IMG/VR virus record: IMGVR_UViG_3300020578_000285
Location: 1 to 31,547 of that record
DNA from: a virus
DNA: 31,547 bases
Reading direction: 5' to 3' (one strand)
Shown: piece after piece, positions 1 to 27,283 of the stretch
How positions within the stretch are numbered: position 1 is the first letter of the stretch
Layout of the letters: the number at the start of each line of letters is the position of its first letter
The notes under the pieces: model-generated
The model's database searches: none
Told to the model about the DNA's origin: nothing
Seen by the model: only the letters and a program-made list of their open reading frames with translations
Made by a program: the position numbers and the translations under genes

Positions 1-3000
1 CTGAAGAACCTGATGTTCCTGAAGAACCTGATGTTCCTGAAGAACCTGAGCTTCCTGATGTTCCTGAACTTCCGCTAGTTCCTGATGAACCAGATGAACC
101 AGATGTTCCTGAGCTTCCACTTGAACCACTTGTACCTGATGAGCCAGAAGTTCCTGAAGAACCTGAGCTACCACTTGTTCCTGATGAGCCAGAAGTTCCC
201 GAAGAACCTGAGCTACCACTTGTTCCAGATGAGCCAGAAGTTCCTGAAGAACCTGAGCTTCCGCTAGTTCCTGAAGAACCAGAGCTTCCTGATGTTCCGT
301 CTGTTCCACTAGTCCCTGAGGAGCCCGAACTACCACTTGTTCCTGAGCTACCACTTGTTCCTGAAGAACCTGATGTTCCACTTGAACCAGAAGAACCAGA
401 AGTTCCAGAAGAACCTGAAGTTCCTGATGAACCAGATGAACCACTTGTTCCTGAAGAGCCTGATGAGCCAGAAGTACCTGATGAACCTGAGCTACCGCTC
501 GTTCCTGATGAGCCAGAAGTTCCTGAACTTCCGCTAGAACCTGATGTTCCAGAAGAACCTGAACTTCCTGATGTTCCGTCTGTACCACTAGTTCCTGAAG
601 AACCCGATGAGCCAGATGTTCCTGAACTTCCACTAGTTCCTGAAGAACCAGAGCTACCGCTGGTTCCTGATGAGCCAGATGTTCCTGAAGAACCACTCGT
701 TCCTGATGAGCCAGATGAACCACTTGTTCCTGAAGAGCCAGAGCTACCACTCGTTCCTGAGGAACCTGAGCTACCACTTGTTCCTGATGAGCCGGAAGTT
801 CCTGAACTTCCGCTAGAACCTGATGTTCCTGAAGAACCTGAGCTTCCTGATGTTCCGTCTGTACCGCTAGTTCCTGAGGAGCCTGAGCTACCACTTGTTC
901 CTGATGAGCCAGAAGTTCCTGAGGAGCCTGAGCTACCTGATGTTCCTGAACTTCCGCTAGTTCCTGATGAGCCAGAAGTTCCAGAAGAACCTGAGCTTCC
1001 TGATGTTCCACTTGTACCACTTGTTCCTGATGAGCCTGATGAGCCGGAAGTTCCTGAAGAGCCTGAGCTACCACTTGTTCCAGATGAGCCAGAAGTTCCT
1101 GAAGAACCTGAGCTTCCGCTAGTTCCTGAAGAACCTGAGCTACCTGATGTCCCGTCTGTACCACTAGTTCCTGAAGAACCCGATGAGCCAGATGTTCCTG
1201 AAGAACCTGATGTTCCACTTGAACCAGAAGAACCAGAAGTTCCTGAAGAGCCTGATGTTCCACTTGAACCAGAAGTTCCTGAAGAACCTGAAGAACCTGA
1301 AGTTCCACTTGAACCAGAAGAACCCGATGTTCCACTTGAACCAGAAGAACCAGAAGTTCCAGAAGAACCTGAGCTTCCGCTTGTTCCAGAAGAACCTGAG
1401 CTTCCGCTAGTTCCAGAAGAACCTGAGCTTCCTGATGTTCCGTCTGTACCACTTGTTCCTGAAGAACCCGATGAGCCAGATGTTCCTGAGCTACCACTTG
1501 TTCCCGAAGAACCTGAGCTTCCTGATGTTCCTGAACTTCCGCTAGTTCCCGAAGAACCCGATGAACCAGATGTTCCTGAACTTCCACTTGAACCACTTGT
1601 TCCCGAAGAACCACTTGTTCCTGAAGAGCCTGAGCTACCACTTGTTCCTGATGAGCCAGAGGTTCCTGAAGAACCTGAGCTTCCGCTAGTTCCTGAAGAA
1701 CCAGAGCTTCCTGATGTTCCGTCTGTACCACTAGTTCCTGAAGAACCCGATGAGCCAGATGTTCCGTCTGTACCACTAGTTCCTGAAGAACCAGAGCTAC
1801 CGCTTGTTCCTGATGAGCCTGAAGTCCCTGAGGAACCTGAGCTTCCGCTTGTTCCTGAAGAACCTGAGCTTCCTGATGTTCCGTCTGTACCACTAGTTCC
1901 TGAAGAGCCCGATGAGCCAGATGTTCCTGAACTTCCACTTGTTCCTGAAGAACCTGAGCTACCACTTGTACCTGAGCTACCACTTGTTCCTGAAGAACCT
2001 GAGCTACCGCTAGTTCCTGAAGAACCAGAGCTTCCTGATGTTCCGTCTATACCACTGGTTCCTGAAGAACCCGATGAGCCAGATGTTCCTGAACTACCAC
2101 TTGTCCCAGAAGAACCCGATGAGCCAGATGTTCCTGAGCTACCACTTGTTCCTGAGCTACCACTTGTTCCTGAGCTACCACTTGTTCCTGAACTGCCACT
2201 TGTTCCTGAGCTACCACTTGTTCCTGATGAACCAGAGCTTCCTGATGTTCCGTCGGTACCACTTGTTCCTGATGAGCCAGAAGTTCCTGAAGAACCTGAG
2301 CTTCCGCTAGTTCCTGATGAACCACTTGTACCTGAACTTCCTGATGTTCCGTCGGTACCACTTGTTCCTGATGAACCTGAGCTGCCGCTTGTTCCTGAGC
2401 TACCACTTGTTCCTGAAGAACCTGAGCTTCCGCTAGTTCCCGAAGAACCAGAGCTTCCTGATGTTCCGTCGGTACCACTTGTTCCTGATGAACCTGAGCT
2501 GCCGCTTGTTCCTGAGCTACCACTTGTTCCTGATGAACCTGAGCTGCCGCTTGTTCCTGAGCTACCACTTGTTCCTGAAGAACCTGAGCTTCCGCTAGTT
2601 CCCGAAGAACCAGAGCTTCCTGATGTTCCGTCGGTACCACTTGTACCTGATGAACCTGAGCTACCGCTTGTTCCTGAGCTACCACTTGTTCCTGAAGAAC
2701 CTGAGCTACCACTTGTTCCTGATGAGCCAGAAGTTCCTGAAGAACCTGAGCTTCCGCTAGTTCCTGAGGAGCCTGAGCTTCCTGATGTTCCGTCTATACC
2801 ACTTGTTCCTGAAGAACCTGAGCTACCACTTGTTCCTGAGCTACCACTTGTTCCTGAAGAACCTGAGCTACCACTTGTTCCCGATGAGCCAGAAGTTCCT
2901 GAAGAACCTGAGCTTCCTGATGTTCCTGAACTTCCGCTAGTTCCTGAGGAGCCTGAGCTTCCTGATGTTCCGTCTATACCACTTGTTCCTGAAGAACCTG

Positions 3001-3696
3001 AGCTACCACTTGTTCCTGAAGAACCTGAGCTTCCGCTAGTTCCTGAAGAACCAGAGCTTCCTGATGTACCGTCTGTACCACTTGTTCCTGAAGAACCTGA
3101 GCTACCACTTGTTCCTGATGAGCCTGAAGTCCCTGAGGAACCTGAGCTTCCGCTAGTTCCTGAAGAACCTGAGCTTCCTGATGTACCGTCTGTACCACTA
3201 GTTCCTGAAGAACCTGAGCTACCACTTGTTCCTGATGAGCCTGAAGTCCCTGAGGAACCTGAGCTTCCGCTAGTTCCTGAAGAACCTGAGCTTCCTGATG
3301 TACCGTCTGTACCACTGGTTCCTGAAGAACCTGAGCTACCACTTGTTCCTGAGCTACCACTTGTTCCTGAAGAACCTGAGCTACCACTTGTTCCGGATGA
3401 GCCAGAAGTTCCTGAAGAACCTGAGCTTCCGCTAGTTCCCGAAGAACCAGAGCTACCTGATGTTCCGTCCGTACCACTAGTTCCTGATGAACCAGATGAA
3501 CCACTTGTTCCTGAAGAGCCAGAAGTTCCTGAAGAACCTGAGCTTCCGCTAGTTCCTGAGGAGCCTGAGCTTCCTGATGTTCCGTCTGTACCGCTAGTTC
3601 CTGATGAACCTGAACTACCACTTGTTCCTGAGCTACCACTTGTTCCTGATGAACCAGAAGTTCCTGAAGAACCTGAGCTTCCGCTAGTTCCTGATT
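1..3696 (-). repeat. Gly-X-Y coding repeat array with nested periods of 9, 117/162 and 279 nt
   Basis: Nine-nucleotide units encode Gly-Thr-Ser or Gly-Ser-Ser. Triplets carrying Asp (Gly-Thr-Asp or Gly-Ile-Asp) sit at 299, 578, 857, 1154, 1442, 1721, 1766, 1883, 2045, 2252, 2351, 2468, 2630, 2792, 2972, 3071, 3188, 3305, 3467 and 3584 (lowest base of each Asp codon). Every spacing is a multiple of 9. The values 279, 117+162 and 180+99 recur, pointing to a 279-nt (31-triplet) higher-order unit. Two 117-nt units at 3071-3305 are almost identical. Reading frame is preserved throughout. Confidence 0.92.
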
Positions 3697-4342
3697 CACC
3701 CGCAGCACCTAATACAATTAAGATAAATTCTGTGTTATTGGCAACCGCTGAAGCACCCGCACCTGCGATTTGACTTACCGTATAATCCTCAAATCCTGAG
3801 GACAGAGGATTTATCGCAGTAACCTCTAATAATTTATAATATGAAGAATCGTTAACTCTTACGAATTTCAATAAAGTACCAATACTGATATTATTGAGAT
3901 AAGTTTGAAATGATATTGAAGGGTAATATGAATTGTCACTTATAGATACTGATGTGGTTGTTTGTGAAAAATCATCTCCTGTATTCAAAGCAAAATATCC
4001 TGAACCTGGATTGATTGTTGTATCTGTCGCACCTGTGAATCTCCAAGAAGCTAAATTACCTTCCAGTCCTGAACTACCACTTGTTCCTGATGAACCAGAG
4101 CTACCACTTGTTCCCGAAGAACCTGAGCTTCCGCTAGTTCCCGACGAGCCTGAGCTTCCAGAAGTTCCTGACGAACCACTAGTTCCAGATGTCCCCGAGG
4201 TGAAACCAGAAGTCAGAGCAGAATATGATATTTGCGAAGAAGTCCCCGAGGTTCCGCCAGTGTAGTCGGTTACTATATAGAGCCTATCGTTTGGGGCTGC
4301 CGATAGGACTAAATCTAAGTCGGTTATTCTTACGTTTGCCAT
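1..4342 (-). CDS. Giant collagen-like (Gly-X-Y) virion fibre protein, 3' end outside window
   Basis: The frame is open from the ATG at 4342 to the left edge, giving at least 1447 codons with no stop. I checked Gly codon phase at many points from 8 to 4085 and it never shifts. The N-terminus (about 45 residues, MANVRITDLDLVLSAAPNDR...) looks like the attachment domains at the head of phage fibre proteins. A short Gly-Thr-Ser/Gly-Ser-Ser tract follows, then a globular domain of about 120 residues (about 4067-3697), then about 410 Gly-X-Y triplets. X and Y are almost only Ser or Thr, with Asp at 20 sites and no Pro seen. It is the last gene before the edge, after the Pro/Thr-stalk gene, and its start is 42 nt past that stop. 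Most likely a long tail or whisker fibre for surface contact. The fibre role is inferred; the repeat structure is directly visible. Exact length depends on assembly through the repeats. Confidence 0.9.
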   Translation of the reverse strand, partial: MANVRITDLDLVLSAAPNDRLYIVTDYTGGTSGTSSQISYSALTSGFTSGTSGTSGSSGTSGSSGSSGTSGSSGSSGTSGSSGSSGTSGSSGLEGNLASWRFTGATDTTINPGSGYFALNTGDDFSQTTTSVSISDNSYYPSISFQTYLNNISIGTLLKFVRVNDSSYYKLLEVTAINPLSSGFEDYTVSQIAGAGASAVANNTEFILIVLGAAGESGTSGSSGSSGTSGSSGTSGSSGTSGSSGSSGTSGTDGTSGSSGSSGTSGSSGSSGTSGSSGTSGSSGSSGTSGTDGTSGSSGSSGTSGSSGSSGTSGSSGTSGSSGSSGTSGSSGTSGSSGSSGTSGTDGTSGSSGSSGTSGSSGSSGTSGSSGTSGSSGSSGTSGTDGTSGSSGSSGTSGSSGSSGTSGSSGTSGSSGSSGTSGTDGTSGSSGSSGTSGSSGSSGTSGSSGSSGTSGIDGTSGSSGSSGTSGSSGTSGSSGSSGTSGSSGTSGSSGSSGTSGSSGTSGSSGSSGTSGIDGTSGSSGSSGTSGSSGSSGTSGSSGTSGSSGSSGTSGSSGTSGSSGSSGTSGTDGTSGSSGSSGTSGSSGSSGTSGSSGTSGSSGSSGTSGSSGTSGSSGSSGTSGTDGTSGSSGSSGTSGSSGSSGTSGSSGTSGSSGSSGTSGTDGTSGSSGTSGSSGTSGSSGSSGTSGSSGTSGTDGTSGSSGSSGTSGSSGTSGSSGTSGSSGTSGSSGTSGSSGTSGSSGSSGTSGSSGTSGSSGSSGTSGIDGTSGSSGSSGTSGSSGSSGTSGSSGTSGSSGSSGTSGSSGTSGSSGSSGTSGTDGTSGSSGSSGTSGSSGSSGTSGSSGTSGSSGSSGTSGTDGTSGSSGSSGTSGTDGTSGSSGSSGTSGSSGSSGTSGSSGTSGSSGSSGTSGSSGTSGSSGSSGTSGSSGSSGTSGSSGTSGSSGSSGTSGSSGTSGSSGSSGTSGTDGTSGSSGSSGTSGSSGSSGTSGSSGSSGTSGSSGSSGTSGSSGSSGTSGSSGSSGTSGSSGTSGSSGTSGSSGSSGTSGSSGTSGSSGSSGTSGTDGTSGSSGSSGTSGSSGSSGTSGSSGTSGSSGSSGTSGSSGSSGTSGTSGTSGSSGSSGTSGSSGTSGSSGTSGSSGSSGTSGSSGTSGSSGSSGTSGTDGTSGSSGSSGTSGSSGSSGTSGSSGTSGSSGSSGTSGSSGSSGTSGSSGSSGTSGSSGTSGSSGTSGSSGSSGTSGSSGTSGSSGSSGTSGTDGTSGSSGSSGTSGSSGSSGTSGSSGTSGSSGSSGTSGSSGSSGTSGSSGSSGTSGSSGTSGSSGSSGTSGSSGTSGSSGTSGSSGSSGTSGTDGTSGSSGSSGTSGSSGSSGTSGSSGTSGSSGSSGTSGSSGTSGSSGSSGTSGSSGTSGSSGSSGTSGSSGSSGTSGSSGTSGSSGSSGTSGSSGTSGSS
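4068..4206 (-). repeat. Short proximal Gly-Thr-Ser/Gly-Ser-Ser tract
   Basis: The same 9-nt Gly-X-Y units as in the long array encode a tract between the N-terminal domain and the globular island of the collagen-like protein. It is separated from the main array by about 370 nt of non-repetitive coding sequence. Confidence 0.8.
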
Positions 4343-4384: not shown

Positions 4385-5281
4385 TTAACAAGGATTACAA
4401 ATATTAATTGTATAACCTTCACTATCTATCTGCAGAAAACTTCCACAGCCATCAATAGTGTTTGTATAATATAAATCACCACCATTGAATGGAGTTGCCA
4501 GAGATACGTCTTGGAAAAATCTCACAACATCATACCACCCACTTGTTGGTGAATATATTGTAACTGATAGAGTATATGAACCAGCACCCACACCACAAAC
4601 ACTCACAGTATCTCCCGTACTCACTAAGTATGTTGTTGGAGTCTGTTGAAGAATCAATTGGTTACCATCTTGAGTAATGATTACATTACCATCTTCGTCT
4701 AAAATTTGAATCTCAAAAATTGTAGGAGTACCTGTCGGTGTTGGTGTATGAGTTGGAGTTTGGGTATTAGTAGGTGTCTGAGTTAGAGTTTGGGTATTAG
4801 TTGGCGTCTGAGTTTGTGTTGGAGTTGGTGTTTCAGTAGGTGTTGGTGTTGCGCCAGGTGTCGCTGTCTCCGAAGGTGTTGGAGTAGTGGTCTGAGTATT
4901 TGTCGGAGTTACAGTCGGAGTTTCAGTATTTGTTGGTGTTGGAGTAGTGGTCTGAGTATTTGTCGGAGTTACAGTCGGAGTCTCAGTATTAGTTGGTGTT
5001 GGTGTTGGCGTTGCAGGTGTTGGCGTTAGAGTTGGTGTTGGAGTTGGCGTTGGTGTACCACATTCGAAGTTTACAACAACTCCATTCAACAAATCTGTTC
5101 TTGTATATCCTGAACCAAATAAATCTTCGTCCAAATAAATTGAAAATGGCCCTAAAGCATTTGAATTCTGAGTAAGTCTAATGATGTAATTGGTGCAACC
5201 TGTTACTGTCAACTGTTGTTCAATCTCTGAATCAACACAACCTATAGCATTATTTACAACTAAAATAGTATGAAGGGCCAT
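4385..5281 (-). CDS. Virion protein with Pro/Thr-rich stalk (298 aa)
   Basis: The protein has three parts. An N-terminal globular domain (1-74) includes a stretch [22 protein letters not shown] Thr-Pro-rich linker follows (about 75-187; units such as TPTNTQ and NTETPTVTP). A C-terminal Cys-containing domain (about 188-298) starts [12 protein letters not shown] and ends NICNPC. No signal peptide is evident. Such linkers are usually extended stalks and possible O-glycosylation targets (family knowledge; modification here is not shown). The gene lies alone between two small gaps, downstream of the 108-residue gene and upstream of the collagen-like gene, and a 15-nt motif ends 7 nt before its ATG. 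Likely a fibre or decoration protein. The domain layout is certain, the role inferred. Confidence 0.82.
4881..5000 (-). repeat. Two tandem 60-nt copies in the Pro/Thr linker
   Basis: Two nearly identical 60-nt copies (4881-4940 and 4941-5000) encode a duplicated 20-residue unit of the type [13 protein letters not shown] plus a Thr/Pro tail. Their high nucleotide identity, differing at about two positions, suggests recent duplication. Confidence 0.85.
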
Positions 5282-5350: not shown

Positions 5351-5677
5351 TTAACAAATTACGAAAGCACAAGAAGATTCTGAAATGGATATATCTACAA
5401 TACAACTCGCTAATTCAATTGTAATTTCAAATGCACAACCGAATGTACAATCCAAAATTTTGAAGATTTCACAACCGTTCGCATCAATCAACTTTAGAAT
5501 TATTTCAGGTGCCGTACTGAAAATTGATGGTATGGTTGAATTGTATTTTACTTGAGGAGGAACAGGACCTGGAGTAATTGTGCCCAATAAGAATTGGTTG
5601 TTTCCATAAACATCAGTTATGTAAACACTAATAGGGTATGTACCTCCCGATATTTCAGTAATTCTAATTTGTACCAT
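5351..5677 (-). CDS. Small virion-cluster protein of unknown function (108 aa)
   Basis: I do not recognise a named family. The sequence begins MVQIRITEISGGTYPISVY and is rich in beta-forming residues, with several Cys in the C-terminal half (ANGCEIF, LDCTFGC, ELASC, SSCAFVIC). The ATG at 5677 shares one base with the TAA of the preceding 709-residue gene (TAATG), which favours this start over the in-frame GTG at 5689. Its N-terminal phrase resembles the beta-sandwich style of its neighbours, so it may be a small decoration or fibre-associated subunit made by coupled translation. That function is inference from position only. Confidence 0.75.
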   Translation of the reverse strand: MVQIRITEISGGTYPISVYITDVYGNNQFLLGTITPGPVPPQVKYNSTIPSIFSTAPEIILKLIDANGCEIFKILDCTFGCAFEITIELASCIVDISISESSCAFVIC

Positions 5678-7806
5678 TATGTTAAACACATTATATCATA
5701 AACTATCACTAGTTCAACTTTTATTTCTTGATTCTCTAACGAATTATTTGTTGTACTTGTTTGAATAGAAATTATATTATTCAACGGGTCAACTGTAACC
5801 GCCCCAATTCCAGGTATTGATAATAACAGAGATTTAACAGTGTCGTACCAAAGATTATCTGATGGTATGTCAACAAGAGAAGTTGAGGTATAGAATGATT
5901 GAGTAACGACTGTTCCCTCAGGAATCACAGATACTTTTGCGGTGAAAATTGCGCTCACCATATCACAATCAGTATTACCCGAAGTGATATCTTGAAATCC
6001 TTCATTCAACATTTGAATTAATCCAAACTTAGAACCAGGTTGAATTGTTATTATATTTTCTCCCATAACATAACTTTCAAATGATACATAACTTGAATCA
6101 CAACTTATAGTTGTTTTTCTTGTCAACGAACATTCTGCAGAATCAATTATTGTCAAATTATAAGTTCCCGCCGATAGTCCGCTGACATTTATCTGTTGTG
6201 GGTTTCCTTCCACGTTGTCTGACCAGTTGTAAGAGTATGGTGGAGTCCCTGATGTTATAAATGCGGTTATTGAACCATTGTTTCCTGTTCCACAAGATGT
6301 AGTATAAAGTGAAAAGTCTAATTGGGGGCTTGATGGAACAAAAACTTGAGTGGTTTGAACACACCCATCTGCATCCGTCACGGTAACTGTGTGCTGTCCT
6401 GATGTTACATTTGAGAACGTTACCGCAGAAAGACCTGTGTCTATCACATTGCTTAAACCATCTAATGAAAAATCCAAAGGTAAAGTATATCCCGACGAAC
6501 AACTAACATAAACTTGACCATTATTTTGATTACAGGTCGTTCCCACCGTCGAAGTCGATATTGTATACTTATTCGAAGATAAAATTGTTATTTCTTGAAC
6601 ATAACTACAAGTTAAACTATCCTGAACTGTAACAAGGTATGTTCCTGGTTGCAGATTGTTAAATAAATAAGAGGTTTGGCTATTGGTAACGTTGACAACA
6701 TTAGCGTCGGGGTATACTAATGTATAAGTAATTGGTACATTACCACCTATAACGTTGATAATAATCTGTCCATTATTGGAGGAACAATATGAACTTTGAC
6801 CTATTATTTGCACGTCTGTGATTCCCTGTGGTACTTCTAATGTTGTACCAACATTTATCGAACATAATCCCGCGTCAGTAACCAAAAAGTTATATTGACC
6901 TGCACTTAACCCTGAGAGAGTATAAGTTTTGGAATAAGAAATCGAGACCGCCCCTGTTGAGGCAGAATAATAATATGGTGCGGTACCTCCTGTGATTGTC
7001 AAATTAATTATACCATCACTTGAAAAACACGTTGGTTGTGTTGCTGTGAATATTCCAAAACCTAAAGGAGCAATATTCACAATTTGAGCTTTCTTCGTAA
7101 CCGAACATCCCTTACTATCCGTCACTTGGACTGAATATTGACCAGCGGTTAGTCCAGTTATAGTGCTTCCTGTCTGACCATCGGTCCAATAATATTTGTA
7201 TGGTGCTGTACCTGTTTGACCTGTTACGAATATTTTACCTATTGGATTTCCACCACATGCGGAGTTCGGGACCACATAAAGACCGCAATCAAATACACCC
7301 GAGGGTTCAATTATAAAGTTTTGACTTTTTCCAGTACAACCACCGAGGTCTTCGGCAATCATATAATATGTGTCAGCACTCAGACTATTAAAAACAACTT
7401 GATTGATTATCGTTGATGCTGAAGTCAAATAAGAATTATTTGAAGTATAGAGATAAAAATTGGTACTAGAAAAATAGGATGTTGATGTACCTGTAACCGC
7501 ACCATTGGTAAAATTACATGTTGTGGGTGCAACTCCAGTGACAGAAACACACATACCACTTGAAATAGGTATGTTCGCATAAATCTCTTCGTTAACAGGT
7601 AGGGTACTGTCGTTGATTCTAATATAATATGTCCCGTATGATAAATTAGTCCTTGTAGATTCTAAAATTCCAACATCTTCACCCAAATATGGTGTAATCC
7701 ATTCAACGGTGAACGGTGGAGTTGCATTATAAGGTACAACTTTAGCCGCACCAAGTTGACCTGTTGAACAATTACCCGTAACGCTTATGTCTGCAAAAAT
7801 TGGCAT
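5677..7806 (-). CDS. Virion protein with seven SprB-like repeats and a shared C-terminal domain (709 aa)
   Basis: Residues about 13-567 form seven repeats of 60-70 residues with the SprB pattern: a Cys near the start, an Asn/Gly-Gly-x-Ile strand, Gly-Gly-Thr-x-Pro-Tyr, then LSAGxYxVTVxDxxGC. Approximate spans are 13-80, 97-167, 184-243, 260-325, 341-409, 425-491 and 505-567. The first two are degenerate. SprB repeats are known from the surface adhesin used in Flavobacterium gliding. Residues about 572-709 form a separate domain whose end (QSFYT, DIPSDNLW, VKVE-like strand) matches the C-terminus of the upstream 994-residue protein. It starts 2 nt after that gene and ends by a TAATG overlap with the next. 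Likely an adhesive tail fibre or spike. Repeat identification is fairly firm; the receptor-binding role is inferred. Confidence 0.85.
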   Translation of the reverse strand: MPIFADISVTGNCSTGQLGAAKVVPYNATPPFTVEWITPYLGEDVGILESTRTNLSYGTYYIRINDSTLPVNEEIYANIPISSGMCVSVTGVAPTTCNFTNGAVTGTSTSYFSSTNFYLYTSNNSYLTSASTIINQVVFNSLSADTYYMIAEDLGGCTGKSQNFIIEPSGVFDCGLYVVPNSACGGNPIGKIFVTGQTGTAPYKYYWTDGQTGSTITGLTAGQYSVQVTDSKGCSVTKKAQIVNIAPLGFGIFTATQPTCFSSDGIINLTITGGTAPYYYSASTGAVSISYSKTYTLSGLSAGQYNFLVTDAGLCSINVGTTLEVPQGITDVQIIGQSSYCSSNNGQIIINVIGGNVPITYTLVYPDANVVNVTNSQTSYLFNNLQPGTYLVTVQDSLTCSYVQEITILSSNKYTISTSTVGTTCNQNNGQVYVSCSSGYTLPLDFSLDGLSNVIDTGLSAVTFSNVTSGQHTVTVTDADGCVQTTQVFVPSSPQLDFSLYTTSCGTGNNGSITAFITSGTPPYSYNWSDNVEGNPQQINVSGLSAGTYNLTIIDSAECSLTRKTTISCDSSYVSFESYVMGENIITIQPGSKFGLIQMLNEGFQDITSGNTDCDMVSAIFTAKVSVIPEGTVVTQSFYTSTSLVDIPSDNLWYDTVKSLLLSIPGIGAVTVDPLNNIISIQTSTTNNSLENQEIKVELVIVYDIMCLT

Positions 7807-7808
7807 TT

Positions 7809-10793
7809 TTATTTTTTACAATTTATGCTTATGTCAATACCGACTTTCAACGAAACCAAACTTTGTAAATCAAAAGGGCTACAAGTCAAACCATTAATCG
7901 TTAAAAAGTTACCATTCAAAAAATAACTATAACCATAATCGTTCAATTTTGGAAGATTTGTAATCAAACTACTTCTCCAAAGTTGACTTGTTGGTACATC
8001 ATCGATTCCAAATCCAGTGTAAAATTGTTGATTGATAATTTGATTTGTCCCAATTGCAAAATTTATATACCATTTTGTTCCTACCGATGATTGTATACAG
8101 TCATTAAGTGTCAACCCCAATGAAGTTAACATGGAATTAATTCTGTTTGTTAAAATACTACTGAAATTACTGACTGTAATATCACCGTTCAACCACGGAT
8201 AGATAAAAAAATCTGTAAATTGGTTGGAACAAGAAAAATCATATATATTTGAGTTGACGAAACAGGGGTCAACAGGGACTGGCACAAATTGACAACCTCT
8301 TTGTCTTCTATAAACAAACTTTTGTTTATTGAATACAGAATTTTCAAATCTTGTACCTCCATTCCATATTGTTGTGGCAGGCATCATCTGTTCGACTAAT
8401 TTTTGCCAATAAGGCCCAATTCCGTTTATATAATCTATCAATTTTTGATAAGTGTATTTGTTATTTGGTATACCAACTGTCTCTTCCGATTCTATATATT
8501 TCCACCATATAGATTGGAGTGTAGGATAACCTCCTGTCTTTCCATCCGTGATGAACTGGCGGTTTCTGGCATTAATCATGTTTTCCCAAAAAGTCTGTGA
8601 AAACTCAAAAAAGGTTTTTTTCTTTGGTTCAGGATTTATATATGTCCAATCCACTCCACCAGGTACAGGATAACCTACAGTTAATCCCGATTCTGGAATT
8701 GGGTAATCATTTTTAACTGATGAATCCCAAACATCATATACCAAACCTTGTGCGGGATTTAAGAATAAATCAACATTTTTTACATTCAGAACTAATTTCT
8801 CATCGTCAACGAAATAATATGCGTTATAGTCGCCATCTGTTGACACTCTTATCTTGTTATCGTCCGCCAACCAAGACTTATTGTTATCAATAACTTTCCT
8901 GAGTTTGAACCCCTCGGTCATAAATGGGAAATCTATATACCTGTTAAGATAAATCTGACCATAACTGAAAGGTTGTAAGGCTGTTTGTATGTCAAAGTTT
9001 TGACCTGTGAATTGTAGGTTTGTAATTGTGACTTGGTCAGGACTTCTATGTTGTGGTGTTACTTCATACCAACCAGCGCCCACTTGAAAAAAATAAGTTT
9101 CAGTATTTCTTGGTGCATTAGGGTATCCTTCATCATCTATTGGATAGTCATCCAATCTAATTGTTACATCAGTAAATGTATTTGTTGAGGTAAATCCCGA
9201 ATAGGTTTTACCTTTGATTTTGTAAGTGTTACCAATTTGAAATGACGGAGAGTTTTGAACATAAGTACCACCTGATATTTGTGCCCATTGAGTAAAAAAT
9301 TGGTCCATATTAATTTTCTGGTCAGCCAAATAAATGTGTTCATTATATTCTATGAGTGATTCAGGGGCACCAATCAATCTCATTATAAACTCAACAGACC
9401 TTCTTGTTCCTTTTGATTTGAAAAGGTACGCGGCATTCAAAATTAAATTTCTGTAAAAAGCGTAGTTTAATTCTGTCGGTGTAAGTGCTCTAGCATAACC
9501 AGGGTAAGTTGGTGTTGATGTATTCCCAAAAATAGAAGTAAGAAAATCTTCGTTAGTAATCGGCGAAAAATTAGAAGACCAACCCAATGTTCTTGCTAAG
9601 TTTACTAAAAGTTGAGATGGGATATCATTGCTAGGATTATAATTAACCGAGTTCATAAAGGCTAGGGCATCTATAAATTGTTTTACTTGGTCAAAACTTC
9701 TTCCATAGATTTGAAAAATCTTTTCTACCTTCTGTCCCAAAGTATCAAACTCTTTCAGAGCATCAGTAATCAGAAATCTAGAAATTAAATTTGATTTGAA
9801 CGAATCCAAGTTTTCCGCAATCAGTTGAAGTTGAGATATGTAATTATCAAAATTGTTGGACCTAATATCTAAGTTCCAAACACCGTCTTTTGGAAAAGTA
9901 ACTTGTTGATATGAGGTATAAAACTGACCAAACTCGTTCTGTTCAGGTACTTGGAAAAATGCAGTGTACTCAGGTCTAATTAATCTATTAAGTAAAAACT
10001 TTTCAACCTCATCAAAATTTTCATTGAATACTTTGTCTGTAACCAAATCATTCAATCTTATTTGGTATTGTTCTGTGATTGTTGATGCTGTAGTCCCAAA
10101 AGGTGCCCCTGAAACTATAAACTCCACGTATCCACTCGAAAGAGTTTGTGAAGGTGTGAAAGCAACTACTTTGAAAATGTTATCGTTGATTGAAACACAA
10201 TAATCAAGATAGGTGTTGTATAGATTTCTATATTGTGAAACCTCAATTTCTCTGACAGAGAGGTTTGTAGTAGCACTGATAGAATAATCAATATCAAACG
10301 GGTTATTAATCCTGTCGACATCAACTTTAAAGTATGTAGTGTCTTGAACTGAATCGTATAAGATGTTTTCAGCGGTATACCCCGTCAAAAAGTTTAAGTT
10401 TAGAAACAATACATCTAAAGCTGCTGGAAATTGATTGATAATATGGATGACTGATACTTGAAATCTTTTCGCTAAAGAACCATACATCGAGAAGTTCAAT
10501 ACTTGTGAAACATCATAGTTTGGATAGACTCTGAACTGAGTTGCAATAATCTTCCTACTCATGAACAAGTCATCAATATCCATCATCTCCAAACTCATAG
10601 GTTCAGAGAATGCACCCACATTAAAGAATCGATTAACTTTCTCCGTTACACCCGTCGTAAACTCAAAATTACCTTGCGTGAGTCCACCCCCTTCGACAGT
10701 TTGTAAACCAACAATATTGTCGGAGAATGTACCCGCCCCACTACCTGGTCTCGGCGGATAAAAAAATTTAGTTTTTTTTATCGTTTTCGCCAT
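7809..10793 (-). CDS. Large baseplate/tail protein with a P2 gpI-like segment; candidate gp7/gpI counterpart (994 aa)
   Basis: Residues about 341-475 follow the layout of phage tail protein I: a helical stretch (ALKEFDTLGQKVEKIF), a PSQLLVNLARTLGW motif near 392-405, and AAYLFKSKGTRRSVEFIMRL near 454-473. The last motif is the KGT-x-x-(A/S)-(I/V) helix typical of gpI. In T4 and P2 the (gp6)2-gp7 and (gpJ)2-gpI trimers are equivalent (established), and the length is close to T4 gp7 (about 1030 residues). This makes it a candidate wedge partner of the gp6 encoded here. The C-terminus (about 905-994) is a separate domain shared with the 709-residue protein. The ATG at 10793 overlaps the preceding TAA by one base. 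Virion role is likely; the gp7 assignment is moderate. Confidence 0.8.
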   Translation of the reverse strand: MAKTIKKTKFFYPPRPGSGAGTFSDNIVGLQTVEGGGLTQGNFEFTTGVTEKVNRFFNVGAFSEPMSLEMMDIDDLFMSRKIIATQFRVYPNYDVSQVLNFSMYGSLAKRFQVSVIHIINQFPAALDVLFLNLNFLTGYTAENILYDSVQDTTYFKVDVDRINNPFDIDYSISATTNLSVREIEVSQYRNLYNTYLDYCVSINDNIFKVVAFTPSQTLSSGYVEFIVSGAPFGTTASTITEQYQIRLNDLVTDKVFNENFDEVEKFLLNRLIRPEYTAFFQVPEQNEFGQFYTSYQQVTFPKDGVWNLDIRSNNFDNYISQLQLIAENLDSFKSNLISRFLITDALKEFDTLGQKVEKIFQIYGRSFDQVKQFIDALAFMNSVNYNPSNDIPSQLLVNLARTLGWSSNFSPITNEDFLTSIFGNTSTPTYPGYARALTPTELNYAFYRNLILNAAYLFKSKGTRRSVEFIMRLIGAPESLIEYNEHIYLADQKINMDQFFTQWAQISGGTYVQNSPSFQIGNTYKIKGKTYSGFTSTNTFTDVTIRLDDYPIDDEGYPNAPRNTETYFFQVGAGWYEVTPQHRSPDQVTITNLQFTGQNFDIQTALQPFSYGQIYLNRYIDFPFMTEGFKLRKVIDNNKSWLADDNKIRVSTDGDYNAYYFVDDEKLVLNVKNVDLFLNPAQGLVYDVWDSSVKNDYPIPESGLTVGYPVPGGVDWTYINPEPKKKTFFEFSQTFWENMINARNRQFITDGKTGGYPTLQSIWWKYIESEETVGIPNNKYTYQKLIDYINGIGPYWQKLVEQMMPATTIWNGGTRFENSVFNKQKFVYRRQRGCQFVPVPVDPCFVNSNIYDFSCSNQFTDFFIYPWLNGDITVSNFSSILTNRINSMLTSLGLTLNDCIQSSVGTKWYINFAIGTNQIINQQFYTGFGIDDVPTSQLWRSSLITNLPKLNDYGYSYFLNGNFLTINGLTCSPFDLQSLVSLKVGIDISINCKK

Positions 10794-11698
10794 TAAGTTG
10801 AGATGTTTGTAAAGTTCTTACTAAAATCAATATTTGTGCCTCTATTTTGTCTAACCTCAAACAATAACGCGTTGAATTGGTCTCTTATTTCATATAAATT
10901 ATACTGTCTGTATATATTATTTTCATCGTCGTAGATTGTATAGATACCGTCATCAATAGATTTAGTCTGATTACCAAAAAGAGCAATAGCAAGAGATGAA
11001 ATGTCATATTCAACCATGTTAATTTCAACAGTAATTGGATTGAAGTAGGTATTACTTATAATAATATCTTGGTCAGGTTGTCCAATAAAGGGCGTCGCAT
11101 TAGGTTTGTTAGTCGGTGATGATGAGGGTGATAATGTACAAAATAAAAGATTTGCAATTCCATCAACATATCTGTATCTGATAGCTTTTTGAGTAGTGTT
11201 TACTTGATTCACAACAACTGGTTCACAAAAGAAACAAGATGTAATCATTCTGAAGAAGTTTGGTATCTTGGTTCCGTCGGGATTCAAATATTCAACTCTG
11301 AAGCCTACCAATCCTTCAGGTACAAACTTATTTAGATACTGTGGTGGTACACCTGCCAAGTCAATTATGATTCCTTTGACGTTTGGTAATGCACTCAAAA
11401 CTCCACAATCTGTTATTGTGGTTCTGATTTGTGCAGGTCTAATATATAATGTGTAGATACCGAGAGCATTGAATTGTTCAGCGGGTAAAGTTAAGTTGTA
11501 AAGTCCTCCGAGAACCTCATTAGGGTCTCCACCTGTTGAACTGTTGTTGAAATAAGGTCTAAGTAATGTTTTTGCATCCAAGGTAGTTAATACAAACTCA
11601 TTTGTTGCATCTCTCGATGGTGTATAATTCATTATAATCTCCACGTCCTCAGGAGATACATCACTTGGTCTTATTGTACCATATGAACCAATTGCCAT
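10793..11698 (-). CDS. Putative virion structural protein (301 aa)
   Basis: I do not recognise a family. The start MAIGSYGTIRPSDVSPEDVE is polar, with no signal peptide or membrane segment. A cluster SCFFCEP (about residues 153-159) and a nearby single Cys in LLFCTL could form disulphides or bind metal. The C-terminal part (ITVEINMVEYDISSLAIALFG onward) looks mixed alpha/beta. It sits in the coupled structural run: preceded by a 35-nt gap holding a copy of the 15-nt motif, and followed by the 994-residue gene through a TAATG overlap. A baseplate or tail role is inferred from position alone. Confidence 0.75.
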   Translation of the reverse strand: MAIGSYGTIRPSDVSPEDVEIIMNYTPSRDATNEFVLTTLDAKTLLRPYFNNSSTGGDPNEVLGGLYNLTLPAEQFNALGIYTLYIRPAQIRTTITDCGVLSALPNVKGIIIDLAGVPPQYLNKFVPEGLVGFRVEYLNPDGTKIPNFFRMITSCFFCEPVVVNQVNTTQKAIRYRYVDGIANLLFCTLSPSSSPTNKPNATPFIGQPDQDIIISNTYFNPITVEINMVEYDISSLAIALFGNQTKSIDDGIYTIYDDENNIYRQYNLYEIRDQFNALLFEVRQNRGTNIDFSKNFTNIST

Positions 11699-11703
11699 TT
11701 TCT

Positions 11704-11718
11704 TTTATTTTATAAATA
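11704..11718 (-). promoter_or_regulatory. 15-nt AT-rich motif before the 301-residue structural gene
   Basis: Identical in all 15 bases to the site at 5289-5303 (TATTTATAAAATAAA on the minus strand), ending 5 nt before the ATG at 11698. It occupies most of the only gap inside this part of the structural run. Confidence 0.45.
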
Positions 11719-11733
11719 GTTTTATTTGATTTT

Positions 11734-12861
11734 TCACACTTCTCCATTTGTTTTATTGACAACGTTGAAAAATCCATATCCGTAGTTAATCATATCACCT
11801 AAATTGTCAACTTCTCCAAGTCTTTGTACTCTTTCGTAAGCACTATTCTTACCTCTTTCGACAAAAACATTCGTTTGAATATTTGGTTGGTCCACAACCT
11901 TAATTAAAACCTCCTCTTTTGTTATCGGTACCGCAGTCAAGTTAGATGTTGTCAAACCTGATGACTCCTCGAAAAATATTGTGGTACCATCTTGATAATC
12001 ATAATAGTTTACATCTTGAATAGTGTAAGCAGTAAAAACATTTAACTCAGCGTTTGTGACAACACCCCATATCTGACCATTTGCAATAATCGGAACTCCA
12101 AGTTGATACTTTTCATTGAACAACGGGGCGGTTAAAGGAACTGTTCCATATATTTGTAACTCTGTTAGTCTCGACTTAGTAAGACCAGATATTGTGAAAG
12201 GGACCACTACGTAATTGTTCGAGGTTTGAGCAGAAACGATATTCACCGCATCACCTGAGAATATATAATCATACGATATTGGTGTTTTTAACCAATTTCC
12301 ATCTAATGTTGTGAAATATATTTCCCCTTTTGGATTTGGGATTGGCACATTCACATAAGGTGTATGAATTGTTTTTTGAACTTTTGTCACACCCCAAGGA
12401 TTTCTTTGTTCCATCACAATTGTATATTCTTTAACCGCCGATGGGTAAGTATGATTTATAGAGTTCGGTGCGTAGTTCGTGATTGTCTGTTTCGGTGTAC
12501 CATCACCCCAATCAATAGTATAAGAGGATAAATCCAAAAACTTTTGAAACTCATCTGATGTATTATAAACATACCATTTGTAAGGTTCTTGAGTTGTAGA
12601 TGAAAATATGAAATTAGCGACAACATTTTTTTGCAAAACAAAACCATCAAAAGGTGAATAATATCCCTCATCTATTGTTGTCTGATTCAAAAGAAAGTTT
12701 ACCGTCAACCCAGTAAATAAAGATGTAAATCTTGGTCCCGATGTCACCATTTGGGACATACCCGAGTATACTCCAAATGTCTGTCCACTTACGGTGACTT
12801 TCGCAATGTCAGAGATAACTGTCTCAGGGGACACAATAAATCTATAATAATCTTGATTCAT
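11734..12861 (-). CDS. Virion structural protein with a PKD-like domain (375 aa)
   Basis: Residues about 105-170 carry the hallmarks of a PKD/Ig-like domain: TIDWGDGTP at 115-123, a HTYP strand at 137-140, then EYTIVMEQRNPWGVTK. PKD domains are beta-sandwiches common in surface proteins and phage tail proteins. The C-terminus has a conserved-looking FVERGKNSAYERVQRLGEVD stretch and ends with an aromatic Gly-Tyr-Gly-Phe-Phe segment. The ATG at 12861 shares a base with the TAA of the preceding gene. The next gene begins after a 35-nt gap. Position in the tail cluster suggests a baseplate-peripheral or fibre-connecting subunit (inference). Confidence 0.78.
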   Translation of the reverse strand: MNQDYYRFIVSPETVISDIAKVTVSGQTFGVYSGMSQMVTSGPRFTSLFTGLTVNFLLNQTTIDEGYYSPFDGFVLQKNVVANFIFSSTTQEPYKWYVYNTSDEFQKFLDLSSYTIDWGDGTPKQTITNYAPNSINHTYPSAVKEYTIVMEQRNPWGVTKVQKTIHTPYVNVPIPNPKGEIYFTTLDGNWLKTPISYDYIFSGDAVNIVSAQTSNNYVVVPFTISGLTKSRLTELQIYGTVPLTAPLFNEKYQLGVPIIANGQIWGVVTNAELNVFTAYTIQDVNYYDYQDGTTIFFEESSGLTTSNLTAVPITKEEVLIKVVDQPNIQTNVFVERGKNSAYERVQRLGEVDNLGDMINYGYGFFNVVNKTNGEV

Positions 12862-13682
12862 TATGGGTTAACATATTCAAACCATTTTATGGGAATGTTT
12901 GTCCCAAGTCTTTGTCCCTCAGTATTTGAAACTACGTAAGTTTGTTTCTCATAATCTAAATCCACTTGATAATAAAAATATTTTGTGCTGTCAAAACTAA
13001 ATGGGTTAGTTAAATACGCTTGAGGTCCATTAGTTCTATCAACTTGTCTATTTGTACTTCCTGTCATCATTTTGATAAATTGACCAGTTTTAGCATCAAA
13101 AAACTTTGCGGTCATGTAGAATCTTTTGATATCCAAAAAGTTTCTTTTTTTCAACCAATAAATAAAAAACCCCTCACTATCACCTATGTAGTCTAAAACA
13201 AAATTTGGTTTGTTGATTTTGACAGGTGTGCGATTCATAACAACATCCATTTTTGTTCCTTGTTGTGTTGGGATAATCATGGTTACGTAGTTGATTTGTT
13301 TTTTCTCATCTACAGAATCATATAAATCCAACTTGAAAAACGAGTTCGAGAAACTGTTAACATAATAAAAAACTTCTTGCGATGTAAATCCTTGATTAAG
13401 ATAATCAATTTTCCAATTACTGATTTGATTTAACGGTCCCCCCGAATAGAAATAAAACTCATAATTTATAAATGTATCGTTTGTTGTGCCAGTTGCTGGT
13501 TCATGTGCAAACCTTGAAACTTCGAAGTCCCTCCCTAAACCAATTACTTGGTTAATCATATCTTCTTCGTAAGCATCTATCGCATCATCCAAACCGAGAT
13601 AGTCCCAATTCAATTGAACGGGTAATACAATCTCTTTGTCCACGAGACCTGTTTGTAATATTTGAAATTTATTCACATCCAT
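12861..13682 (-). CDS. Putative virion structural protein (273 aa)
   Basis: Not a family I can name. It starts MDVNKFQILQTGLVDKEI. I chose the ATG at 13682 because the upstream in-frame codon at 13685 is only a TTG. Rich in Tyr, Phe and Asn (for example NYEFYFYSGG and KYFYYQVDLDYEKQTY), as expected for beta-rich tail proteins. It overlaps the preceding 562-residue gene by 14 nt and ends in a TAATG junction with the PKD-like gene, so the three are probably translated from one message. No signal peptide, membrane segment or catalytic motif is visible. Tail role inferred from context. Confidence 0.75.
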   Translation of the reverse strand: MDVNKFQILQTGLVDKEIVLPVQLNWDYLGLDDAIDAYEEDMINQVIGLGRDFEVSRFAHEPATGTTNDTFINYEFYFYSGGPLNQISNWKIDYLNQGFTSQEVFYYVNSFSNSFFKLDLYDSVDEKKQINYVTMIIPTQQGTKMDVVMNRTPVKINKPNFVLDYIGDSEGFFIYWLKKRNFLDIKRFYMTAKFFDAKTGQFIKMMTGSTNRQVDRTNGPQAYLTNPFSFDSTKYFYYQVDLDYEKQTYVVSNTEGQRLGTNIPIKWFEYVNP

Positions 13683-15357
13683 CAATTAGTGGTTTTACAA
13701 CAAAGTCGTATCCTGTTTTATAATTAGCCCCTTCAGGTATTAATCTGAAAGTAACTTCGGTATATGGATAATGTGCAGAGTTTAGATATGGGTAATCTAC
13801 ACCGAATCCTTGCTCATCAAAAAATCCATAAGTGTATAAATCCCTCCATAAAAATTGGGCTTCAGCATCTGAGTAGTAAGCATAAGAGGGAATCCCATCA
13901 ACCATGTTCGATGGGGCATTTTCAATATAATTAGAAAACACTCTTATCGTCAACTTGTTATGAGGAACATAATAAAAACCTGCGGCGTTAGGGTCCGATG
14001 TATTCGTGGTTTGGAAAACATTTTGATTATATTTCAACTTTTGATAATAAGTTGAAACGACACGCTCAAGTTGTTCCGAATTGTTCCACTCACAAAAGTC
14101 TCCATCAATCATGTCTCCTCTCTTTAAATCAAGATTATAGTAGAAGGTTTTAGTGGCACCATTTGTTTTTGTATAAGCGCTAGTGGGAATTGAGGTATTT
14201 GACTCAACGTTATTTTGTGACCACCAACTATTGATTGGATTTGTTATATTGAATTCCCAACCTTGTTTTAATCCAATTTCATTTGTTGGGTTGTTGAAAT
14301 ATCCCGAGAATCCTTTGTTTATAATTGAAAGATACAATTCTGATATTGGTCTTTTCTGATTGTCCTTCAATCCCAAAAGATTTAAATCGTATCCTACAGT
14401 AAAATTATAGGCGTTACTACTTGTTTTTTGAGATATTCGAGTAACATTATCAGGTGTAATAGAACTGAATTCCAATTTCTTTTCTTCCAAAAAAATATTT
14501 TTTTCAAACCCGGCTTTAGACACAATCATATCTTCAATATTTGTGAGAACCTTGTGTCTTCTAACATAATATTCGGATTTAGTTTCTTCAATATTATCAG
14601 GATTTATTACCCTCTTGAAAGTACCTGTGGTTCCGTTTGCAAAAGTTGTACCCGTATATCCCAAGTTGAATAGATTGAAGACATATTCTTCACTATCAAA
14701 TTGTCCATTACCTAACGAATATACCAAGAAAATATTTTTATTCTCATACGAAATGGAAAGTTCAACATATTCTCCTGGTGTCAATCCATGACTAGCAACA
14801 CAACTAAACTGAACAATTGGGTTTCCCTCCTCTAATGTGTTTGTTATTGAAAATGGAATTCCGTTTTTAGCCACCCAATTCAAGGTCCCAAAACTTGGAG
14901 ATGTATAGAAAAGTTTTTCCTCATAATCATTTTCCGCAGCATATGTTACATAATACATCCAATTGTAGGTGTATGCACTTTTTGCTTTGTATGTAAAATG
15001 CCCATCAGGGATATTTGGTCTGAAAAAATCGAACTCATAGTACTGAGGAAATCCTTTCCATATTCCACTTATTTGTGATTCCTCGGGATTTACATAATAC
15101 AACAAGTTTTTGAATGGGTTATAGGTGGTAGTGCCTGTATAGGAATTCGTATAAAGATATTTGACTTTGAATGTAGGTCTAAATATGGGTGAGCCTTGTC
15201 TTTCATTTTCGAAAACCTGAGCTAAACTAATAGTAGAACTCCTATCATATTCTACAAGTTGTTGACTTGTTTCATCTAAATTGACTTCAATTTGTTGGTC
15301 AAGAGATGGCGCCGCCGCATATCTCAAAGAACTCGGTATGATTGTAAACTTATTCAA
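13669..15357 (-). CDS. Putative virion structural protein (562 aa)
   Basis: I do not recognise a family. The start is uncertain: the frame opens with TTG at 15357, overlapping the end of the 1574-residue gene by 8 nt, and there is no in-frame ATG near the N-terminus. The sequence is aromatic and Asn-rich, without signal peptide or membrane segment. A stretch VQFSCVASHGLTPGEYVELS (about 181-200) resembles short beta-hairpin modules of tail proteins. It lies between the 1574- and 273-residue genes and overlaps both. In T4 the genes after gp6 encode further wedge and fibre-attachment proteins, so a baseplate role is plausible but rests on position. Confidence 0.75.
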   Translation of the reverse strand: MNKFTIIPSSLRYAAAPSLDQQIEVNLDETSQQLVEYDRSSTISLAQVFENERQGSPIFRPTFKVKYLYTNSYTGTTTYNPFKNLLYYVNPEESQISGIWKGFPQYYEFDFFRPNIPDGHFTYKAKSAYTYNWMYYVTYAAENDYEEKLFYTSPSFGTLNWVAKNGIPFSITNTLEEGNPIVQFSCVASHGLTPGEYVELSISYENKNIFLVYSLGNGQFDSEEYVFNLFNLGYTGTTFANGTTGTFKRVINPDNIEETKSEYYVRRHKVLTNIEDMIVSKAGFEKNIFLEEKKLEFSSITPDNVTRISQKTSSNAYNFTVGYDLNLLGLKDNQKRPISELYLSIINKGFSGYFNNPTNEIGLKQGWEFNITNPINSWWSQNNVESNTSIPTSAYTKTNGATKTFYYNLDLKRGDMIDGDFCEWNNSEQLERVVSTYYQKLKYNQNVFQTTNTSDPNAAGFYYVPHNKLTIRVFSNYIENAPSNMVDGIPSYAYYSDAEAQFLWRDLYTYGFFDEQGFGVDYPYLNSAHYPYTEVTFRLIPEGANYKTGYDFVVKPLIDGCE

Positions 15358-22005: not shown

Positions 22006-22476
22006 TTAAATATTAATTATAACAAAATCACTTTGTTCAAAAACACCTCGATTATTAGAATAATCTATTCTAACCACAGCAGTATACTCAGCAGTCCCTT
22101 TACCAGGAACTCTGAAAATTGATGATTCGGGAGTACCAGGTGTTGCAATACCTTCAGAGAGTGCAACTTCATTCAATGGGTCAGCAGGTGTTATTGTAAT
22201 ATTATTAAGAAGTAAGTTTGGCATATAAGTTTCTACCGAATCTCTGATATCTGATTGAATTGCATCAAAAGTCAATCCGTCAAACGGTTCAAAAATATAT
22301 TCGTATAGTCTTGTACCAAAATCAGGAAGATAATAACGAGAACCTTTCCTCGTCAATAACAAATGTATAAGGTCTGCTTTAATTTCTTTAGCCTCAGTTT
22401 CCGTCAACTGCAGGTAGTCACCACGAAGAGAATCTCTGAATGGAAAATTTATACCAAATGTAATCCCATCTGCCAT
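22006..22476 (-). CDS. gp25: Baseplate wedge protein, gp25/GPW family (156 aa)
   Basis: The family core is clear: LTETEAKEIKADLIHLLLTR, then KGSRYYLPDFGTRLYEYIFEP, corresponding to the conserved T-x-K-G-S-R...P-x-F-G motif of the GPW/gp25 group. T4 gp25 is about 132 residues, so this copy is slightly longer, with a C-terminal beta extension (FRVPGKGTAEYTAVVRIDY). gp25 links baseplate wedges to the first sheath ring, and relatives occur in type VI secretion (TssE). It is the first structural gene after the metabolic block. The ATG at 22476 is preceded by AT-rich sequence with an ATAAATA-type site on the opposite strand and no Shine-Dalgarno. Confidence 0.93.
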   Translation of the reverse strand: MADGITFGINFPFRDSLRGDYLQLTETEAKEIKADLIHLLLTRKGSRYYLPDFGTRLYEYIFEPFDGLTFDAIQSDIRDSVETYMPNLLLNNITITPADPLNEVALSEGIATPGTPESSIFRVPGKGTAEYTAVVRIDYSNNRGVFEQSDFVIINI

Positions 22477-26560: not shown

Positions 26561-27283
26561 TTATTTTTTTGGTAATTCTTGCCAAAATGCGGCTAAATGT
26601 TCTATGTTATAATCCTTCGGTTTTTCTTTAGTAAAATAACATATTGAATAAGATAATCTGTTTATGTTTTGTGGGCAATTCAGAGGGTGCGGATGTCCAT
26701 GAAAGGTATCATGACTGACATTGAATAAAACCATTCTATTAAAGATAGGTTCAATTTTTTTTACACATCTACTCATATCTTTTTCCCATAGTTCTAAATC
26801 GCTCCCCCAACTTTTATCCCAATCCTTGTTCATATAGATAAGCATAGTAAGTCTTCTATATGTTTTATGAATTCTGTGGAGTGTGTAATCCGCATGAATA
26901 TCTAATTTTCCACCCTTAGTTAATTTATGTACCGCACCTCCAAGATATAAATTATCGGGTAACAAGTTTCTTATTCCACTAAGTTCCTCAATAAATCCTA
27001 TAAACTCTGCAGAGTTAAAAAAATTCATGAGTTTGTAAGTTGCTGGTGCATATTCCTTTAAATCGTTCATATTGTTTTCACACCAAGGTGTAAAAAATTT
27101 ATTTACTTGGTGTTCAGCAGAGTATGCTGTACCATCATATCCGAAAAATTCAAAAATATTCATTTCATCCATACTTTTGTTTAGCAAGGAGTCTTGCACA
27201 AAATCATCAATCACAATGTGTGGGTAAGGATATGCATTCTGATAACTATGTGCAATTTTTTTTGATAATGAAAAATCTATCAT
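26561..27283 (-). CDS. 2OG-Fe(II) dioxygenase, prolyl-hydroxylase-like fold, copy A (240 aa)
   Basis: The Fe(II) triad is visible: HAD at 130-132 and a distal His near 195 in FHGHPHPL. An Arg in the following NRLSYSICYF strand (about 209) would bind 2-oxoglutarate. The phrase LTMLIYMNKDWDKSWGSDLELW is typical of this oxygenase group. Such enzymes are frequent in T4-like phages of aquatic bacteria; substrates are mostly unknown. It shares its whole layout with the next gene upstream (copy B), including the start MIDFSLS/MIDLSIS and the same triad positions, so the two arose by duplication. A 14-nt palindrome lies 12 nt before the ATG. Substrate unknown. Confidence 0.88.
   Translation of the reverse strand: MIDFSLSKKIAHSYQNAYPYPHIVIDDFVQDSLLNKSMDEMNIFEFFGYDGTAYSAEHQVNKFFTPWCENNMNDLKEYAPATYKLMNFFNSAEFIGFIEELSGIRNLLPDNLYLGGAVHKLTKGGKLDIHADYTLHRIHKTYRRLTMLIYMNKDWDKSWGSDLELWEKDMSRCVKKIEPIFNRMVLFNVSHDTFHGHPHPLNCPQNINRLSYSICYFTKEKPKDYNIEHLAAFWQELPKK

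Follow-up and report, generated by a model that had tools for sequence, protein, structure and literature searches.

A proline-free collagen-like tail fibre in a T4-like phage fragment, and a TibC/AAH-family glycosyltransferase gene accompanying such fibres in its relatives

Phages related to the one studied here that carry long Pro-free Gly-X-Y arrays encode a TibC/AAH-family O-glycosyltransferase, typically just 3' of the fibre gene. This association is new here, and the literature search found no papers linking TibC-family enzymes to phage collagen. The window, a 31,547-bp virus fragment from IMG/VR, contains a fibre coding sequence that is probably the N-terminal part of the tail-fibre shaft of a T4-like myophage, a collagen-type shaft in which O-glycosylation of the Y-position Ser would take the place of Pro.

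The genes of the window lie almost all on the minus strand, and they include a gp32-like SSB, a UvsX-like recombinase, a DnaB-like helicase and a ribonucleotide reductase. The gene order leads from the gp25-like baseplate wedge protein (22006–22476, minus strand) and the baseplate J/gp6-like wedge protein (20162–22000, minus strand) through large virion proteins to the collagen-like fibre CDS, which comes last. The proteins in between include, all on the minus strand, a 301-aa protein (MAIGSYGTIRPSDVSP...; 10793–11698) that is syntenic in the relatives, a 994-aa protein (7809–10793) also found upstream of array fibres in the relatives, a decoration-type protein with SprB repeats (5677–7806; Pfam SprB 2.8e-16, PHROG Hoc-like), and a small conserved protein (5351–5689) occupying the same place in the relatives. 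The original prediction, a phage fibre whose shaft is collagen-like and Pro-free, is borne out by the baseplate genes, by the N-terminal anchor shared with 33 relatives and by the constraint on Gly described below; the C-terminus of such a tail fibre is seen in the relatives only.

The immediate neighbour of the fibre CDS is a Thr/Pro-rich, stalk-like protein with PTPT repeats (4385–5281, minus strand) and a weak match to phrog_15511. Its PTPTNTET repeats are reminiscent of a mucin-like stalk, longer homologues are present in L034 and L048, and it is a possible second substrate of glycosylation. Elsewhere in the window, two tandem 2OG-Fe(II) oxygenases (PF13640) are encoded on the minus strand (26561–27283 and 27345–28127). 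This superfamily takes in the prolyl hydroxylases, and the collagen of the window phage is without Pro; also in the Microcystis phage Mel-JY01 one CDS is annotated as a prolyl 4-hydroxylase. There were no tRNA or Rfam matches in the window, and the search of genome contigs with the anchor alignment for a host found no relative.

The fibre CDS (2–4342, minus strand) comprises 1447 codons with no stop before the contig end, and its C-terminus is missing. It matched the Pfam Collagen model PF01391 with 2.5e-177, a score that reflects composition, and among the PHROGs it matched tail fiber and collagen-like minor tail proteins. The protein opens with the conserved 49-aa anchor MANVRITDL...ISYSALTSGFTS (4196–4342, minus strand), followed by a first short Gly-X-Y run of about 14–16 triplets (4052–4195, minus strand), the last two of which (GLE and GNL) lead into a globular insert domain of about 121 aa (3704–4066, minus strand). 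The insert is a cassette that occurs once or twice per fibre in the relatives. Its AlphaFold2 model, with a mean pLDDT of 76, is mostly beta, and comparison with the PDB gave no significant fold match.

The main array (2–3709, minus strand) consists of 412 uninterrupted triplets, close to the approximately 410 Pro-free, almost exclusively Ser/Thr triplets reported originally: GSS 228, GTS 162, GTD 17, GID 3, GAA 1 and GES 1. Because the array runs off the contig end, this number is a minimum, and it would correspond to at least 354 nm of fully extended triple helix, taking 0.286 nm per residue. Gly is found at position 1 only, and recurs at every third residue without a break through the 412 triplets, as in collagens; the enrichment of Pro or Hyp in X and Y, which is typical and not strictly defining of collagens, is absent from the window array, which contains no Pro. 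The X and Y positions are not equivalent, X being occupied by Ser (228), Thr (179) and Ile (3) and never by Asp, and Y by Ser (390) and Asp (20) and never by Thr. The 20 Asp triplets were found on CDS 4342..2 with the spacings listed earlier, from the N- to the C-terminal side 13, 18, 13, 13, 11, 20, 18, 18, 13, 11, 23, 18, 13, 5, 31, 32, 33, 31 and 31 triplets; that all of these are multiples of 9 nt is true and also trivial, a triplet being 9 nt long. The matches of the array in the PDB (animal collagens and 8zxl, 'spindlefibril' and 'axialfibril') were rejected as reflecting Gly periodicity only, the aligned sequences containing Pro. An antisense open frame (3–3773, plus strand; 1256 aa, PEEPELPLVP...) was likewise rejected as a gene, because a G-(S/T/I)-(S/D) array cannot yield a stop codon there, and is a mechanical shadow.

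The anchor search identified 33 further IMG/VR loci, all with Ser/Thr arrays and nearly all broken inside the array. Of the complete relatives, L041 has a terminal Peptidase_S74 chaperone (E=3.6e-19) and the others a C-domain starting SKSFDIPHPTKEG, which is also terminal in many array-less phage fibres. The trimerising ends suggested originally are accordingly supported in relatives only (by the Peptidase_S74 of L041), the window C-terminus being absent. The second C-terminal domain, of about 110 aa (SKSFDIPHPTKEG...RLRYGxLEGPEHGVYxRG; alignment A4, L034:13692-14174 and 24 others), is widespread in phages, and had no Pfam model and no significant PDB structure match.

The composition of the family was determined from 163 dereplicated arrays including 12,610 triplets. 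X was occupied by Thr in 62.7%, Ser in 28.4%, Ile in 3.2% and Pro in 0.02%, and Y by Ser in 81.2%, Asp in 7.1%, Thr in 5.2%, Asn in 4.0% and Pro in 0.11% of the triplets, so that the lack of Pro is no peculiarity of the window sequence and is the norm across the family. In the published collagens of phages, Gram-positive bacteria and humans, Pro makes up 22–48% of X, acidic residues sit mostly in X, and Y carries Thr, Lys or Arg (PMC3368898 Table 4). Judged by composition, the fibre family is a class of its own. Asp or Asn in Y ranges among the relatives from 0% to 40% of triplets (0% in L070 with 88 triplets, 0.6% in L059 with 357), and Lys and Arg that could pair with Asp are almost lacking from the family arrays. 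Since Asp is optional and its partners nearly missing, the ion bridges at Asp proposed originally do not hold as a general stabiliser. The longest single run observed, in L160, has 921 triplets and would be about 790 nm long if fully extended.

Arrays of this kind were present also in named phage records. The uncultured 735-kb LR756501.1 encodes at least two Pro-free GTS-array proteins (L130:3-7121 and 7158-15605) of 2373 and 2816 aa, with runs of 301 and 424 triplets. In the isolated relative Mel-JY01 (PP395634.1; L131:1-3052) the GTS/GSS fibre frame lies on the plus strand (2-3049), and in its place the record annotates the minus-strand shadow ORFs WWT39286 and WWT39287 (PEVPRVPLVP...); Pro-free Ser/Thr arrays invite such wrong-strand gene calls. 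The 321-kb contig IMGVR_UViG_3300032050_000001 (L021 and L054) starts and ends within the same fibre array, and because both ends lie there it is probably a nearly complete jumbo genome of about 321 kb broken only at the array. The same phage has a second, separate collagen-repeat gene (G007:C1:273804-274877).

The enzyme was identified in a protein of 1234 aa adjoining the fibre of the L034 lineage and in one of 1226 aa near the Mel-JY01 fibre. The C-terminal domains of both passed the NCBIfam model TIGR04414 (hepto_Aah_TibC, autotransporter O-heptosyltransferase) with 293.6 and 317.4 bits, the cut-off being 200, and the alignment of the enzyme to the PDB structure of TibC (4RAP) gave 1.2e-74. 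The catalytic Asp110 of TibC together with Thr226, Lys230 and Trp305, and also the four iron-finger Cys (Cys339, Cys342, Cys358 and Cys370), were conserved in ten of ten sequences. Arg286, which in TibC contacts the adenine of ADP-heptose, was replaced by Met, Gly, Ile or Leu in the ten sequences, and therefore the enzyme is described here as working like TibC and not as an ADP-heptosyltransferase. The gene gmhA of heptose synthesis was searched for in eight phages with enzyme and array and found in none; together with the loss of Arg286 this suggests that the donor sugar may be other than heptose. In these phages the enzyme is fused to FkbM/GT1 or other modules. TibC glycosylates Ser and not Thr (PMC4358343), a specificity matching the Ser in Y of the arrays. 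Of other sugar-transferring candidates, GT2 (PF00535) was not enriched near the fibre, its matches lying elsewhere. Beside the L041 fibre two fusions of GT7 (beta4-galactosyltransferase-like) with Laminin_G_3 were observed (L047:4405-5847 and 5799-7229), and its surroundings also include an epimerase and several radical-SAM proteins.

In the relatives the enzyme gene is typically convergent with the fibre gene and immediately 3' of it; 18 of the 19 array–enzyme pairs examined were convergent, several with 3–56 nt between the ORFs. Among loci sharing the C-domain, the enzyme was found within 9 kb in all five array clusters and in none of the 29 array-less ones (Fisher 3.6e-6, a value that overstates independence because the clusters belong to related lineages and are not phylogenetically independent). 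It was absent from the entire length of 15 whole array-less records with the shared C-domain, and the same query was positive in three of the three long array-bearing records searched. When the search was started from the enzyme, Ser/Thr arrays were found within 10 kb at 46 of 80 viral loci, these being the 80 closest of more than 580 matches and not dereplicated. Collagen repeats were present in 10 of the 12 whole enzyme-bearing records, including three with none nearby. Among 50,697 phage records the enzyme occurred in four, three of which have such arrays (the 735-kb phage twice, and Mel-JY01); the fourth, LR756504 (636 kb), had no collagen match. The distance is not always short: over 30 kb separate the enzyme from the arrays examined in both L041 and the 735-kb phage, the TibC-family gene of LR756501.1 (735 kb) being located at 580 kb. 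Three of the 15 enzyme-less records had collagen repeats elsewhere, all of them containing Pro (GPQ/GEQ/GEK with 17 Pro in 50 triplets, and GPT). Thus the enzyme accompanies the Pro-free Ser/Thr arrays and not the Pro-containing ones seen. No gene of the TibC/AAH (BAHT) family was found in the 31.5 kb of the window, where the contig ends before the expected position, nor in another 14 contigs that break off within the array or close to it, and some long contigs ending in the array (for example L035, 99 kb; L037, 66 kb; L012, 64 kb) had no enzyme in the sequenced part. As the window stops inside the array, before the place where the enzyme would be expected, we infer its presence in the window phage from the relatives.

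The same genes could be read otherwise, with an ordinary unmodified collagen-like fibre and a TibC-family enzyme and sugar genes acting on the host surface (O-antigen or capsule) or on another protein. In marine T4-like phages the tail-fibre region often harbours clusters of glycosyltransferases, whose usual interpretation is O-antigen modification (PMC7029224), a wider sugar gene cluster lies beside the fibre in L059 and L061, and also the variable residue at Arg286 would fit such a role. Yet BAHT genes usually adjoin the gene of their substrate, and enzymes of the TIGR04414/TibC kind O-glycosylate a protein, the adhesin encoded next door (PMC4358343). Furthermore, the enzyme is linked to the Pro-free arrays and not to array-less fibres sharing the C-domain or to those collagens with Pro that were observed, which makes an action on the host surface or another protein unlikely. 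Of the three stabilisers named in the original prediction, glycosylation is thereby the best supported, a TibC-family gene accompanying the arrays in the relatives.

Selection on the array was assessed from paired copies at lags of 5, 13, 18 and 31 triplets. Positions 1 and 2 of the Gly codons showed no differences in about 900 comparisons and position 3 differed in 31–36%, indicating strong purifying selection for Gly at every third residue. Ser in Y was kept through switches between TCN and AGY codons, with differences in 18–25% at the first and second codon positions of Y. On these codon comparisons both Gly at every third residue and Ser in Y are selected, which argues against the array being a mere linker.

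This bears on the possibility of a flexible Gly-Ser-Thr tether, or of a bundle resembling polyglycine II, in place of a three-chain collagen helix. A bare triple helix that lacks Pro and nearly all charge pairs would presumably be weak, and the preferences in X and Y are opposite to those of the published collagen groups (PMC3368898 Table 4), with Asp in Y and Thr in X, so that a triple helix of the standard kind cannot be taken for granted. A linker, however, would not need an absolute Gly at every third residue in the face of saturated synonymous change, nor an asymmetry of X and Y over 12,610 triplets, and hundreds of triplets without turn signals would be ill suited to a folded-back polyglycine-II sandwich. 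The tether or bundle is accordingly considered improbable, and a collagen-type shaft remains the preferred reading of the array.

Autocorrelation of the triplet string gave 0.699 at lag 31 (279 nt), with z=7.0 against shuffles of the ts and tss words; in 1000 word shuffles the maximum at any lag of at least 9 was 0.627. The 279-nt peak predicted originally is thus genuine, and it belongs to a nested set of four peaks of equal height, at 45, 117, 162 and 279 nt, lags 18 (0.712), 13 (0.698) and 5 (0.706) being equally strong. All four lags are sums of words of two (GTS-GSS) and three (GTS-GSS-GSS) triplets. The pairs of adjacent Asp spacings summing to 31 were five of 13, 3.1 being expected on shuffling (P=0.16), giving no footing to the idea that 117+162 and 180+99 are subdivisions of 279. 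With three other lags as strong and other periods in other lineages (4/8, 13, 15/16, 51 and 3 triplets), an ancestral 31-triplet unit was not upheld, and 279 nt was rejected as the fundamental unit.

Also the identity of synonymous codons peaked at lags 13, 18, 31 and 5 (z 8.2, 7.7, 6.8 and 5.3), so the periods record stepwise duplication of the DNA. Ten contigs with 100% identical DNA over 8 kb upstream differ inside the array by whole blocks, among them a 51-triplet duplication in L034 relative to L014 and 22 triplets in L013; part of the variation between assemblies may be assembly error. In view of the synonymous periods, the differing periods of the lineages and these block differences, the super-period is a record of slippage or recombination and not a conserved axial repeat. 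An artefact, of assembly or mechanical, is a very improbable source of the super-period and of the array length: the contig does end inside the array, eight 120-mers are repeated and assemblies of one phage disagree in array length, but exact repeats reach 127 nt at most, no 150-mer recurs, synonymous variation makes most positions unique, and the arrays of relatives are independent and of similar size.

On the preferred reading, a glycosylated collagen-type shaft, the protein would form homotrimers that make up a very long tail fibre in a large T4-like myophage. The fibre would be joined to the virion by the N-terminal anchor, the Gly-X-Y array would form a collagen-type shaft of three polyproline-II chains, globular cassettes would interrupt it, and the missing C-terminus would be a receptor-facing or chaperone domain, as in the relatives. 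Shaft length and period would arise from repeated in-frame duplication and deletion of DNA, acting on words of two and three triplets, blocks of five triplets and larger blocks. The phage TibC/AAH-family glycosyltransferase is predicted to modify the nearly invariant Ser in Y in the host cytoplasm, before assembly, and the glycans, perhaps methylated by the FkbM modules, could replace Pro in providing hydration, stability and shielding.

Among known systems, EPclP of E. coli O157 prophages similarly has a Gly-X-Y fibre shaft between non-collagen N- and C-domains, varying in length in steps of three residues (PMC3368898). Its X positions hold 48% Pro and 36% Asp or Glu and its Y positions 31% Lys or Arg, whereas the window family is essentially without Pro and cations, has arrays many times longer, and has a linked BAHT gene; no Pfam domain corresponding to PfN, PCoil or PfC was found in the window protein, which also lacks the Pro- and charge-rich composition. 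BclA of Bacillus and BclA1 of C. difficile share a bacterial collagen-like shaft for which O-glycosylation has been proposed as a stabiliser (PMC8968730). Gram-positive collagens have 31% Pro in X and 48% Thr in Y, in contrast to no Pro, Thr in X and Ser in Y in the window family, and the enzyme of its relatives is of the TibC family and phage-encoded. With TibC/AAH and their partners TibA/AIDA-I the relatives share TIGR04414, the iron-finger Cys, catalytic residues and a gene beside a long Ser/Thr-rich adhesive repeat protein; the partner is here a phage collagen-type fibre and not a beta-helix autotransporter, the enzyme is fused to modules, and Arg286 is replaced. Glycosylated virion proteins have been described in mycobacteriophages (Freeman et al. 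2023, as cited in PMC12619734), where, in that account, capsid and tail-tube subunits are modified at their C-termini; in the present case the whole fibre shaft is the predicted substrate.

We tentatively suggest, at slightly less than even confidence, that the fibres represent a widespread natural collagen class of large and jumbo phages, including LR756501, in which Pro is replaced by enzymatic O-glycosylation of Ser in Y. Just short of an even chance is also given to the fuller description of this class, a Gly-(Thr/Ser)-Ser shaft of up to 921 triplets (about 0.8 µm extended), varying in length in frame and served by a dedicated TibC-family enzyme.

The stability of collagen normally depends on Pro/Hyp or on charge pairs. 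If the proposed reading is true, long arrays with neither would be a natural experiment on the stabilisation of the Gly-X-Y helix, and the array and its enzyme a defined two-gene system in which to study it. The frequent breaks of assemblies at the fibre gene in such genomes would be explained. The TibC/AAH family would extend from bacterial adhesins to phage fibres, and glycosylated fibres of several hundred nanometres would be predicted on some of the largest phages.
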